DNA from: Phycisphaerales bacterium
GTDB taxonomy: Bacteria > Planctomycetota > Phycisphaerae > Phycisphaerales > SM1A02
Reading direction: 5' to 3'
Length of the DNA stretch: 62,223 nt
NCBI GenBank assembly: GCA_009691785.1
Contig: SIAM01000008.1
Location: 1 to 62,223 of the forward strand
Below the pieces are notes generated by a model. That model did not search any database. It worked only from the letters and a program-made list of their open reading frames with translations, and had not been told where the DNA came from. Shown piece by piece: positions 44,200 through 47,642 of this stretch (position 1 is its first letter; every line of letters starts with the position of its first letter). The position numbers and the translations under genes are program-made.

Positions 44200-44367
44200 G
44201 TGATTTCCTTTTTGGTTGAGGTTGTTGGGGAGCAAATGGTAGCGAAAATGTTGCTCTTGCAGGACTTTCAAACATGTGATTTCAAAGAAAAAGCGTTGAG
44301 GATTGCCCATGCGAGCCGAAGAAGCGGTACTTTTGCGCTTTCGTAGTGACATGGAACAGGAGTCAGC

Positions 44368-46503
44368 ATGGTTGGCAAGGATGCCGCATTGATGAGTAAG
44401 AGACAACCCAAGTCAGGCAAATCGCGCGCTAAGAAGAGCGTGGATGAATCAAGCGATAGCGCGGCGCCGCGCAAAGGCAAGAACCGTGGTGCGACAGCCG
44501 AGGAAATGGGCTCGCGTCAGCGCGACATTTCTGTCAGCGAATTTTTTGCCAAGAACCGACATTTGCTGGGCTTTGATAATCCGCGCAAGGCGTTGTTGAC
44601 CACGGTCAAAGAGGCGGTGGACAATAGTTTGGACGCCTGCGAAGAAGGTGGAATACTTCCTGAACTTGCGGTGATCATTGAGGATTTGCAACCTGATCGT
44701 CCGGCGACTTCCAAGAGTTCGCGCTACCGCATTACGGTGGTGGACAATGGTCCAGGAATTGTGCGCAAGCAAATTGAGAATATTTTCGGGCGGCTTTTGT
44801 ATGGATCAAAATTCCATCGCTTGAAGATGAGCCGCGGTCAGCAGGGCATTGGTATCAGCGCGGCGGGCATGTATGGATTGATCACCACTGGCAAGCCCAT
44901 GCAGATTGTCACCAAGATTCGCTCCAGCGATGCGGCGCATCGCATTGAGTTGGCCATGAATACAAAAACAAATCGCGCCGAAGTGACGGCCGACGCGGAG
45001 ACCAAAGATTTTCCGCCGGCGAAATTGCGCGATGTGACTGCGGGCTCGCGCTCGCTTGCGGCCACGGACGGTTTCTTAAGTCCAAAAATATTTCCAACTG
45101 GAACAAGTGTTTCCATTGAACTTGAGGGCCGCTATCAAAGGGGCCGCGGTTCTGTTGATGAGTTTTTAGAACTCACAGGCATCGCCAATCCGCACGCGCG
45201 CATTACCTATGTTCCGCCGTCGCGCGAGAGTGGCGCGGATGATGATGAACTTTTGCCGGCCGATGCGGTTGCCACCGCGGTGGATGCCGGCGAGGTGAAA
45301 GTTGAAGTCACCTCGGAGCACCATGGCGTGATTATGTTTCCGCGAGCGGTAAATGAATTGCCGCCGGAAACACGGGAAATTCAGCCACATCCTAAAGGGG
45401 TTGAATTGGGCACGCTGCTGCAAATGTTGAAGGAGTACGAGGCCGCGGAGAAAGGCTCGTTGTACAAATTTTTGCAGGATCAATTTTGCCGCGTGTCCGC
45501 CGCGACAGCGGGCACATTGTGCGAAGCCGCGGGCGCGACCAGCCGCACACGTGCTGGCGATATAGAGCCGCCGCAAGCGGAAAAATTATTCGCCGCGTTT
45601 CAAGAGGCCAAGTTGGGTCCGCCACCTGTTGATTGTTTGGCGCCCATTGGCGTGCGGCAATTGTTGGCGGGCATGCTGAAAGGTGTGCGCGCGGAATTTT
45701 ACGCCGCCAGCAGCCGCGAGCCAGAAATTTATCGCGGTCGTCCATTTCAAATTGAGGCGGCTATTGCCTTTGGCGGCGAGCTGCCAACGGAGGAGTCAAG
45801 CCGCGTGATTCGATTCGCCAATCGCGTGCCGCTTTTGTTTCAACAAAGCGCGTGCTCCAGTTTCAAAGCCGTGGCTGAAACAGGCTGGAAAAACTATGGT
45901 TTAACTCAGCCGCGTGGCAGCACGCCAATCGGGCCGCTGGTGATTTTAATTCACATGGCCAGCGTGTGGGTTCCGTTCACCAGCGAGTCCAAGGAGGCCA
46001 TCGCCGACTACGACGAGATCCGCAAGGAGATGAAGTTGGCGCTGATGGAGTGCGGGCGCAAACTAGGAAGTTATTTGCGCAAGCGTTTGAAGATGCGCCG
46101 CGAGGGCGAGCGCCGCGATGTGTTTGAGCGCTACATTGGCGAAGTTTCTAAGTCGCTGCATCACATTCATGGCGCCGACACGCGCAAGGTATACGACGCA
46201 TTGTTGGCGCAAGCTAAAAAGCGCACGCGCCAAGCCGATCAAGTGTTGAATGAAGATGGCAAGGTGGTCAAGGCCGAGGACCCATCGGATCAAGAGGGTG
46301 TGTTGGTTGTGGCCGACGCCATTCCAGCGCTGGCGCAAAGCGACCATAGTGAAGTAAAAGATTCGCATTTAGAAGCCAAAAAACCCTCTACAAGAGTGAA
46401 TGTGAATACCAAGACAAAGCGCGGCAAGGCTTCCGACAATGAAAATGTGAAGAGTAAAAAATCCAAGCGTGATGATTCCCCAACGCTCTTTGAAGCGGAT
46501 TGA
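44368..46503 (+). CDS. top6B: DNA topoisomerase VI subunit B
   Basis: ATPase subunit of a type IIB topoisomerase, the archaeal/plant enzyme. GHKL (Bergerat) motifs are present: N box KEAVDNSLDAC at 81-91, G1 VVDNGPGI near 124-131, and G2 SRGQQGIGISAAGMYG at 155-170. The transducer domain follows with VPLLFQQSACSSFKAV, then RGSTPIGP near the switch lysine region. The 100-residue C-terminal tail is Lys/Asp/Ser-rich and looks disordered. It has 711 residues, against about 530 in archaea. The ATG at 44368 has AGGAG five bases upstream. The A subunit follows after 11 bases, making the assignment firm. Confidence 0.96.
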   Translation: MVGKDAALMSKRQPKSGKSRAKKSVDESSDSAAPRKGKNRGATAEEMGSRQRDISVSEFFAKNRHLLGFDNPRKALLTTVKEAVDNSLDACEEGGILPELAVIIEDLQPDRPATSKSSRYRITVVDNGPGIVRKQIENIFGRLLYGSKFHRLKMSRGQQGIGISAAGMYGLITTGKPMQIVTKIRSSDAAHRIELAMNTKTNRAEVTADAETKDFPPAKLRDVTAGSRSLAATDGFLSPKIFPTGTSVSIELEGRYQRGRGSVDEFLELTGIANPHARITYVPPSRESGADDDELLPADAVATAVDAGEVKVEVTSEHHGVIMFPRAVNELPPETREIQPHPKGVELGTLLQMLKEYEAAEKGSLYKFLQDQFCRVSAATAGTLCEAAGATSRTRAGDIEPPQAEKLFAAFQEAKLGPPPVDCLAPIGVRQLLAGMLKGVRAEFYAASSREPEIYRGRPFQIEAAIAFGGELPTEESSRVIRFANRVPLLFQQSACSSFKAVAETGWKNYGLTQPRGSTPIGPLVILIHMASVWVPFTSESKEAIADYDEIRKEMKLALMECGRKLGSYLRKRLKMRREGERRDVFERYIGEVSKSLHHIHGADTRKVYDALLAQAKKRTRQADQVLNEDGKVVKAEDPSDQEGVLVVADAIPALAQSDHSEVKDSHLEAKKPSTRVNVNTKTKRGKASDNENVKSKKSKRDDSPTLFEAD

Positions 46504-46514
46504 ATGGAGTTCCC

Positions 46515-47642
46515 ATGGCCAAAAAAATAACCAAACAAGTTTCCACCAAAGCTCGCGATGTCAACACGCAGAAAAAGATTTATGTGCTTGCCGAGTCCGT
46601 GACCAAGGCCGCGTTGGGCGGCAAGGAACCCATCGTGAGCGTGCCCACGCGTTCGCGCTCCAACACCATTTGGAACAAGAAGCGCGGCATTCTTGAAATG
46701 GGAAATGCCACGCAAGAGCGTCAGTTGTTCAATTTGAATCAAGCGAAAATTTTCATGCAGACGCTGCTGCACTCTGGTTCTATCAAGGATTTAATCGAGG
46801 CCGACAAGACGCTGAGTTTGCGCGGTATGTTTTATAAGGGCCTGCACACGGTGGCTGGAACCAAGGAAAAAACATTCGTTGATCAGACGGAGTCCGACGG
46901 AATTCTGGAGGACTTGGAAGTTTCACTGACCGCGTTGCGCGAGGAACTTCACATTTTTGCCAAGAAAGCCGGCAGTATTGTGGGCAATATCACGCTGATT
47001 GATTCAGGCGACGAGATTGATTGCCGGCGCATGGGTTCCGGCGGCTACGCCATTCCCAGCATTGTGGAACCCGATGTGATTCAGTTTAAAAAGTGCGAAG
47101 CCAAATTTATTTTGCATGTGGAAAAAAATACCGTGTGGAGCCGCTTCAATGAGGATCGATTTTGGGAGAAGCACAATTGCATTTTGACCGAAGGTGGTGG
47201 ACAACCGCCGCGTGGCGTGCGCCGGTTGCTGCGTCGCATGCATGAGGAATTAAAGTTGCCCGTGTATTGCCTGCTCGATTGCGATCCGTGGGGGCATTAC
47301 ATCTATAGCGTCATCAAGCAAGGTTCCATTTCCCTGGCGTTTGAAAGTCAGCGGCTTGCGATTCCAGAGGCAAAATTTCTTGGCATTCGCGCCAAGGATT
47401 ACAAGGCGTGCGGTCTGAGCGACGATGTGCAAATTGCGCTGAACGACAACGACATCAAGCGCGCCAAGGAAATTGCCGCGTATCCATGGTTCCAAGGTCA
47501 CAAGCCGTGGCAAAAAGAAATTGAAGGCCTTCTGACCAACGGATTTAAAATGGAAGTGGAGTCCTTGATCACCAAGGATATTTCCTACGTGACGGAGGAA
47601 TATGTTCCGCAGCGTTTGAAGGCCAAAGATTGGCTAGAGTGA
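46515..47642 (+). CDS. top6A: DNA topoisomerase VI subunit A (Spo11 homologue)
   Basis: DNA-cleaving subunit of topoisomerase VI, 375 residues. The 5Y-CAP domain carries SLRGMFYKGLH, whose Tyr107 corresponds to the catalytic tyrosine. The Toprim metal residues are visible: Glu203 in ILHVEKNTVWSRF, and Asp255/Asp257 in LLDCDPWGHYIYSV. The C-terminal region DVQIALNDNDIKRAKEI also fits the family. The ATG at 46515 has GGAG upstream. It overlaps the 3' end of the convergent histidine kinase gene by nine bases. Confidence 0.96.
   Translation: MAKKITKQVSTKARDVNTQKKIYVLAESVTKAALGGKEPIVSVPTRSRSNTIWNKKRGILEMGNATQERQLFNLNQAKIFMQTLLHSGSIKDLIEADKTLSLRGMFYKGLHTVAGTKEKTFVDQTESDGILEDLEVSLTALREELHIFAKKAGSIVGNITLIDSGDEIDCRRMGSGGYAIPSIVEPDVIQFKKCEAKFILHVEKNTVWSRFNEDRFWEKHNCILTEGGGQPPRGVRRLLRRMHEELKLPVYCLLDCDPWGHYIYSVIKQGSISLAFESQRLAIPEAKFLGIRAKDYKACGLSDDVQIALNDNDIKRAKEIAAYPWFQGHKPWQKEIEGLLTNGFKMEVESLITKDISYVTEEYVPQRLKAKDWLE

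Follow-up and report, generated by a model that had tools for sequence, protein, structure and literature searches.

The window analysed here is a stretch of 62,223 nucleotides (contig SIAM01000008.1, assembly GCA_009691785.1) from a Phycisphaerales bacterium of the phylum Planctomycetota, and it contains, at 44368–47642, the genes for both subunits of DNA topoisomerase VI (topo VI). We consider it likely, with a probability of about 0.75, that these genes encode a working A2B2 enzyme which serves as a decatenase beside gyrase in a planctomycete without topoisomerase IV (topo IV), and that this enzyme is a mosaic: its B subunit would go with other bacterial B subunits on the Methanosarcina side, and its A subunit would belong to a separate type on the Sulfolobus side. 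The reading is built on observations made by computation, namely the two genes, their catalytic residues, a single gyrase, an inverse distribution of topo VI and a second type IIA enzyme, and a conflict between the A and B phylogenies. In the catalytic scheme of type IIB enzymes, ATP would close the B dimer, A would cut one duplex via Tyr107, with metal bound by the Toprim domain, and a second duplex would be passed, so that replicated sister DNA would be unlinked.

The features of the locus are the following (residue numbers are those of the subunit concerned):

44358..44362, + strand: ribosome-binding site of top6B, AGGAG, read from the sequence
44368..46503, + strand: top6B, topo VI subunit B, 711 amino acids (NF003218, PF09239, PDB 2q2e_B)
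44494..45009, + strand: GHKL ATPase part of B, residues 43–214 (HMMER alignment to Methanosarcina mazei topo VI B; invariant residues)
45622..46107, + strand: transducer domain of B, residues 419–580 (PF09239)
46279..46500, + strand: C-terminal low-complexity tail of B, residues 638–711 (the NF003218 match stops at 637; 651–711 predicted disordered, with a predicted local distance difference test score, pLDDT, of about 35)
46477..46491, + strand: S-P-T-L-F short linear motif, B residues 704–708, a candidate beta-clamp-binding variant without Q
46505..46509, + strand: ribosome-binding site of top6A, TGGAG, read from the sequence
46515..47642, + strand: top6A, topo VI subunit A, 375 amino acids, type I (NF003333)
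46833..46835, + strand: codon of the catalytic Tyr107 of A (invariant in 23/23)
47121..47285, + strand: Toprim acidic residues Glu203, Asp255 and Asp257 of A (invariant in 23/23; PF21180)

An earlier note, made from the letters of the window, had described a complete topo VI with intact GHKL motifs, Tyr107 and Toprim Glu/Asp residues, and protein families, PDB matches and the fold of A all agree with it. Subunit B scores 592 bits against NCBIfam NF003218 (cut-off 274), its transducer matches Pfam PF09239 at 3e-55 and the protein matches PDB 2q2e_B at 3e-130; subunit A, scored on a 380-amino-acid version, reaches 509 bits against NF003333 (cut-off 465), and its Toprim domain matches Pfam at 9e-58. 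The ATG at 46515 was preferred over the TTG at 46500 as start of top6A because of the GGAG upstream, which gives a protein of 375 amino acids; each of the two genes is preceded by a GGAG-type ribosome-binding site. Tyr107, Glu203, Asp255 and Asp257 are identical in 23/23 aligned A subunits. E82, N86, D126, G128, G130, G157, G160, G162 and K542, a set which covers Glu82, Asn86, the glycines of the G1 and G2 motifs and Lys542, are identical in 25/25 aligned B subunits; the function of each invariant residue in A and B we take to be that assigned to it in work on topo VI. The AlphaFold model of A has a mean pLDDT of 90.8 and its top PDB fold matches are topo VI A; that of B has a mean of 74.6 and falls below 50 at residues 1–52 and 651–711, as well as in the inner stretches 144–160, 292–310, 487–493 and 536–544. 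The pair thus shares with the archaeal enzymes (M. mazei, 2q2e/9o0g; Saccharolobus shibatae, 2zbk) a B subunit with GHKL ATPase and transducer, an A subunit with the tyrosine and the Toprim E and DxD, and the fold of A. As in topo VI, A and B are encoded by separate genes that occur together. A fused type IIB enzyme or topoisomerase VIII, in which A and B form one chain, was ruled out by the two reading frames and the stop at 46501–46503. NF003333 and several sister models for topo VI A are labelled 'DNA topoisomerase IV subunit A', a source of public mislabelling of topo VI A.

The window's genome (2.19 Mb in 77 contigs, 92.0% complete, 0.8% contamination) was searched for type IIA genes. It has one gene of the GyrA/ParC family (an 886-amino-acid open frame) and one of the GyrB family (881 amino acids), that is, one gyrA and one gyrB; no topo IV, in the sense of a second type IIA pair, was found in this 92% complete assembly. 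A genome of the same genus (G360; G, f, g and L denote genomes, families, genera and loci of our comparison sample) likewise has one gyrA and one gyrB. In GyrA (L002) the strict box Q[RK]RGG[RK]G is absent; a variant, QGRGGVG, is present, and closer to the end lies another RGG box, QSRGGKG.

On a larger scale, topo VI B was found in 191 of 392 Planctomycetota genomes, so that the view of type IIB enzymes as sparse in bacteria, expressed in the earlier note, fails for this phylum. The genomes with topo VI comprise 167 with one type IIA gene, 19 with two or more and 5 with none, and those without it 92, 106 and 3, respectively (Fisher p 1e-20, kinship ignored). Within the window's order, 23 genomes of families f1, f2, f3 and f5 combine topo VI with one type IIA gene, and in f4 all seven genomes lack topo VI and carry two type IIA genes, the second GyrB-family frame being 641–659 amino acids long in the four examined. 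Switches also occur inside other families: the ratio of genomes with topo VI only to genomes with a second type IIA gene only is 18:3 in f37, 7:1 in f72, 3:2 in f20 and 6:1 in f53.

Kinship was taken into account on an RpoB tree of 77 out of 80 genomes, which had been picked by hand to include families where topo VI varies (G112 and G305 had no RpoB match and G318 has RpoB in two pieces). On this tree the topo VI state changes at least 20 times. Across 19 independent contrasts, a second PF00521 gene changed in the opposite direction in 10.0, in the same direction in 1.1 and not at all in 7.8 (median p 0.012); for ordinary ParE, assigned by eye from E-values and frame lengths, the figures were 7.7, 1.0 and 10.3 (median p 0.039). 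Ordinary ParE occurs in 2 of 42 genomes with topo VI vs 19 of 35 others. Many genomes with both topo VI and a second GyrB-like gene have a divergent version of the latter (E 1e-29 to 1e-37) and not an ordinary ParE; such genes are counted as a second type IIA gene in the 392-genome comparison and are split off in the RpoB-tree test. It appears, then, that topo VI and topo IV tend to stand in for one another across the phylum, with exceptions, and that the inverse link is weaker on the RpoB tree (p 0.01–0.07) than in the raw counts.

These comparisons lend support to the suggestion of the earlier note that topo VI may complement gyrase where topo IV is missing; we infer activity in the cell and decatenation as the role of the enzyme. 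ParCE (topo IV) has the same proposed role, decatenation beside gyrase, although it is of a different enzyme class, and it tends to be missing where topo VI occurs. In the passages considered of the published work, M. mazei topo VI is described as a decatenase by preference (PMC8837201), its complementation of an Escherichia coli parE(ts) mutant is mentioned as unpublished (PMC11302465), and a passage on essential-paralogue groups in Planctopirus limnophila appears to name DNA topoisomerase subunits (PMC10632474).

Several points weigh against this reading. The test with any second GyrB gene misses 0.05 (opposite 9.0, same 1.8; median p 0.065), the 77 tree genomes were of our own choosing and the window's genome is 92% complete. 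Most or some of the genomes in f63, f26, f32 and f71 carry, beside topo VI, a second type IIA enzyme that is divergent, and 19 topo VI genomes carry two or more type IIA genes. Conversely, 92 of the 392 genomes (92 of the 201 without topo VI) have a single type IIA gene and no topo VI, including 16/16 in f29, 14/16 in f39 and 18/23 in f49, which indicates that gyrase alone can suffice; within the order of the window itself, topo VI and a second type IIA gene are both missing from G172, while G002, of the same genus, carries topo VI. It could accordingly be proposed that gyrase decatenates by itself, as in bacteria without topo IV, and that topo VI works elsewhere, perhaps in recombination or at stalled forks. 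We regard this as unlikely: topo VI and the second type IIA enzyme switch inversely and repeatedly, both within families and on the RpoB tree.

In f63, f26, f32 and f71 and in G088, G374, G082, G009, G040 and G302, several of them with topo VI as well, the second gene of the GyrB/ParE family is divergent (PF00204, E 1e-29 to 1e-37) and unlike ordinary ParE; it is possibly another kind of type IIA enzyme.

As for the published distribution, the sections considered of Allen & Maxwell 2024 (PMC11302465) give 17 bacterial families with topo VI, five of them with gyrase and topo VI and without topo IV, and see no necessary link with the absence of topo IV; here, an inverse tendency is seen in one phylum examined at scale. 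That this phylum has topo VI has been published before, and its presence alone is not new. The five families we take to be planctomycete. Compared with the parts of the literature considered, the inverse tendency between topo VI and topo IV across the phylum, the exchange of a subunit and the clamp-like tail motif (see below) are apparently new. Where topo VI and another type IIA enzyme have repeatedly taken each other's place, as in this phylum, there is a natural experiment on which enzyme unlinks sister chromosomes.

We now turn to the mosaic. Bacterial A subunits fall into two types, I (the window's) and II, and a conflict between subunits is seen within type I, in trees of 51 rows where the window's group consists of f1, f5, three f2 genomes and a stray f43_G038. 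In the A tree this group joins f72/f81/f98 (100/96), and its grouping with the order-mates f3 and G278 is rejected (p 1e-5). In the B tree it joins f3 and G278 (100/98), and grouping with f72/f81/f98 is rejected (p 2.5e-4). B subunits of Phycisphaerae/Phycisphaerales records and those of the window's order form one clade (98/98), and the RpoB tree groups the sampled genomes of f1, f2, f3, f4 and f5 (100/100). Because A adjoins B on one contig in f3_G077, f2_G278 and f72_G121, binning error is no explanation of the conflict. One subunit would thus have been exchanged within the order, although the genes are adjacent; in the simplest reading it was probably A that was swapped, B being kept.

At greater depth, the two subunits also behave differently (means over 30 type I and 25 type II rows; A of G364 and G206 and the second A of G016 were dropped as partial or unmatched). 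The mean identity of A subunits is 59.8% within type I, 65.3% within type II and 34.4% between types, with ranges that do not overlap; the corresponding figures for B are 58.7, 57.9 and 55.2%. Type I B subunits are nearer M. mazei (mean identity 47.9% vs 35.1% to S. shibatae) and type I A subunits nearer S. shibatae (39.2% vs 32.8% to M. mazei). Family models point the same way: the five type I A subunits scanned, the window's included, score best with NF003333 and second with NF003336, the model of S. shibatae, and the four type II A subunits scanned, of which two come from f7, a family of the same class, have their best match in NF003337, the model of M. jannaschii, below its cut-off. In the deep test (59 of 91 rows, 14 near relatives having been removed by hand; four archaeal references with both subunits), the grouping of type II A with S. 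shibatae was rejected (p 0.006).

Other results argue against two ancestries. In three of the four type II A subunits the second-best model is NF003333, that of type I, by a small margin; a single group of all bacterial A subunits is not rejected (p 0.10); in B, type I together with S. shibatae makes up one side of an unstarred branch and is not rejected; and the B backbone is poorly resolved, with only four archaea having both subunits. Since the deep tests are limited by this archaeal sample, the claim of exchange is based on the identities, the family models and the conflict within the order.

The alternative is that whole operons were transferred from archaea and that A merely diverged differently from B, with no exchange. 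Whole transfers are what the parts considered of Allen & Maxwell 2024 (PMC11302465) infer from two bacterial clusters in the A tree and two in the B tree, and the single bacterial A group that was not rejected would fit them too. We nevertheless find this improbable. Within types, A and B diverge alike (about 58–65% identity), and between types A stands at 34% vs 55% for B; each of the two A types has its best score with a model of its own on the archaeal side; and the conflict inside the order sits on short branches. The mosaic remains our preferred account, and the A/B conflict is, like the tail motif, a point of difference from that study; it is apparently new, the comparison with printed work having covered the pertinent parts of PMC11302465 and PMC9348778 only. 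It suggests that an obligate topoisomerase complex can acquire a new cutting subunit and keep its ATPase partner.

That the contig is an archaeal contaminant, or the operon dead, is next to negligible as an explanation: the proteins do show archaeal affinity, but the neighbouring genes have a bacterial appearance (judged from reading their translations, not from gene-by-gene searches), contamination is 0.8%, the catalytic residues are kept and the same B-A pair is adjacent in 8/8 other genomes of the window's family that were fetched (in G364, A is cut by the contig end), which bears out the bacterial origin asserted in the earlier note. In the 80 genomes searched for it, A is present in 76; of the other four, three have no B either, and the fourth is G364, with its truncated A. 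A scan of genome contigs confirmed at least 564 relatives of this A type; the best 80 of these at least 564 are from Nitrospirota, Myxococcota, Elusimicrobiota, Rokubacteria, Acidobacteriota, Pseudomonadota and Planctomycetota, with one lacking a lineage, and all 80 are bacterial by lineage (that one by title only) and none archaeal.

The B subunit ends in a long tail, and the two A types differ in the tails of their partners. Tail length was counted beyond the stretch aligned with window residues 321–605; L112 and L113 were placed in type II by their tails, and L133 and L184, which duplicate L087 and L096, were excluded from the motif counts. Where the partner is a type I A, the B tail has a median length of 114.5 residues (112 tails, range 24–193) and is mostly of low complexity; where it is a type II A, the median is 25 (44 tails, range 20–58), so that the ranges overlap. 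In 40 of the 44 type II tails the last residues form a basic helix-end pattern of the type L-x-RSRK. Disorder was modelled on the window's B only. The long basic/acidic tail described in the earlier note is thus real; its stated absence from archaeal enzymes holds only in part, as archaea that have gyrase carry other C-terminal extensions. We take the 2022 study of these extensions to be that of Villain et al. In the sections considered (PMC9348778), C-terminal extensions of Top6B occur in gyrase-bearing archaea and never in gyrase-less ones, a specialisation of topo VI that avoids interference with gyrase is discussed, and M. mazei topo VI B has an immunoglobulin-like domain; the tail of the window's B is predicted to be disordered instead. 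By analogy, the bacterial B tail could be another solution to interference with gyrase.

The tails are enriched in a Leu-Phe dipeptide. Tails from 19 of the 23 topo VI genomes of f1, f2, f3 and f5 were compared, and all 19 have one Leu-Phe each (2.0 expected from shuffles; 19 reached in 0/2000), at 2–36 residues from the end; the tail of a Phycisphaerae record (L192) has none. For wider motif counts, tails of 50 residues or fewer were excluded, the first 35 residues were cut and 104 type I tails were thinned to 92 non-redundant ones. Leu-Phe occurs in 41 of the 92 (2.9 expected), and Q-x-x-L-[FLVI] or Q-x-x-M-F in 26 (1.2 expected; 0/1000 shuffles). Among control patterns, the reversed one was found once (1.2 expected), K-x-x-L-[FLVI] once (4.5) and A-x-x-L-[FLVI] three times (5.0). 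By phylum, the Q pattern is present in 15/28 Nitrospirota, 10/42 Planctomycetota and 1/7 Myxococcota rows, and in none of the 15 other rows (six Elusimicrobiota, six Rokubacteria and one each of Pseudomonadota, Acidobacteriota and unplaced). Examples are QQELF, QIALF and QMPLF (Nitrospira), QLQMF (C-terminus of an f81 protein), QEGLFD and QDSLFD (f3) and QLSLV (myxococcal); motifs of the order without Q are SPTLF, DGDLF and, at the very end, DPRLF, the residues preceding Leu-Phe being often acidic or small. In whole-tail counts, LY is enriched (8/43, 1.8 expected) and FL absent (3.6 expected) in Planctomycetota; in other phyla FL is found in 6/69 (2.3 expected).

A bacterial clamp-binding consensus, QL(S/D)LF, which may vary more, is given in the part considered of a review (PMC9690074). 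Those B tails of Nitrospirota and Planctomycetota counted above that carry Q-x-x-L-F or a similar motif resemble clamp-binding proteins in this; the window differs, its SPTLF being without Q. DnaE was compared just after HHH_6 in 20 genomes (19 of the order and G167), the site where E. coli DnaE has QADMF. It reads QLSMF in the window's genome (at the HHH_6 edge), QGSLF in f5, QNALF in two f2 genomes and, without Q, DDFLF or ADFLF in f3. The likeness of this site to the tail motif supports docking on the clamp. As a tentative proposal, possible rather than probable, type I topo VI in at least several lineages would be a replisome-tethered decatenase that follows forks and removes precatenanes while they arise, its low-complexity B tail docking on the beta clamp via a Q-x-x-L-F-like motif.

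Against clamp docking, the strict pentapeptide QL[SD]LF is found in 0/104 tails, the window's included, and 15 of the 19 order tails, again including the window's, have no Q at the clamp position. Family f3 lost Q in DnaE yet keeps Q in the B tail, so that a shared shift of consensus is no explanation of the loss of Q. The tail Leu-Phe could instead bind another partner, through a signal like the tip of SSB or to some other replication or segregation protein, or could have no single function. We give this alternative a chance falling somewhat short of even, slightly above that of clamp docking. It is favoured by the missing Q and the frequent acidic or small residues before Leu-Phe, by the enrichment of E-x-x-L-[FLVI] as well (9/92 tails, 3.3 expected, 2/1000), and by the retention of Q in 17/20 DnaE; it is less easily squared with Leu-Phe lying 26–36 residues from the end in 7/19 tails, unlike the SSB tip, or with the 26/92 tails that carry the Q pattern.

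In the part of the review's table considered (PMC9690074), topoisomerase (Topo) I and Topo II alpha stand under PCNA and no topoisomerase is among the bacterial clamp partners. A passage of PMC4929162 has topo VI of Pyrococcus abyssi co-purified with NucS, PCNA and RF-C subunits. Among the titles and abstract openings listed, and in the passages considered of PMC9690074 and PMC4929162, we found no claim of a topoisomerase with a bacterial clamp-binding motif or of a link between topo VI and the clamp. The tail motif predicts binding to DnaN, which, if true, would place a decatenase on the replication fork; bacteria would then have an equivalent of eukaryotic Topo II bound to PCNA and of the C-terminal extensions that topo VI has in archaea with gyrase. 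With the tail on B and an exchangeable A, the cutting part could then be swapped while targeting and motor stay.

Some minor observations concern the arrangement and architecture of the genes elsewhere in the sample. In families f6, f7 and f8 of the window's class, six genomes (G057, G311, G127, G261, G142 and G287) have A and B far apart or on separate contigs, in contrast to the window's adjacent genes. The topo VI operon of L083 (G038, f43, outside the order) is 75% identical to the window's and would be either on a misbinned contig or a recent transfer. G172 (f2, g10), mentioned above, would reflect a recent loss or an assembly gap. An intein or fusion in B proteins with two PF09239 matches was ruled out, only an insert of about 70 residues in the transducer being present; it was seen in G121, G205, G339 and G353 (f72), G167 and G357 (f81), G369 (f98) and G076 and G110 (f53). 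Finally, L075, L080 and L090 (G154, G293 and G207) were rejected as fusion candidates, A having a separate frame there; their B frames of 1250–1386 amino acids carry additional N-terminal sequence.

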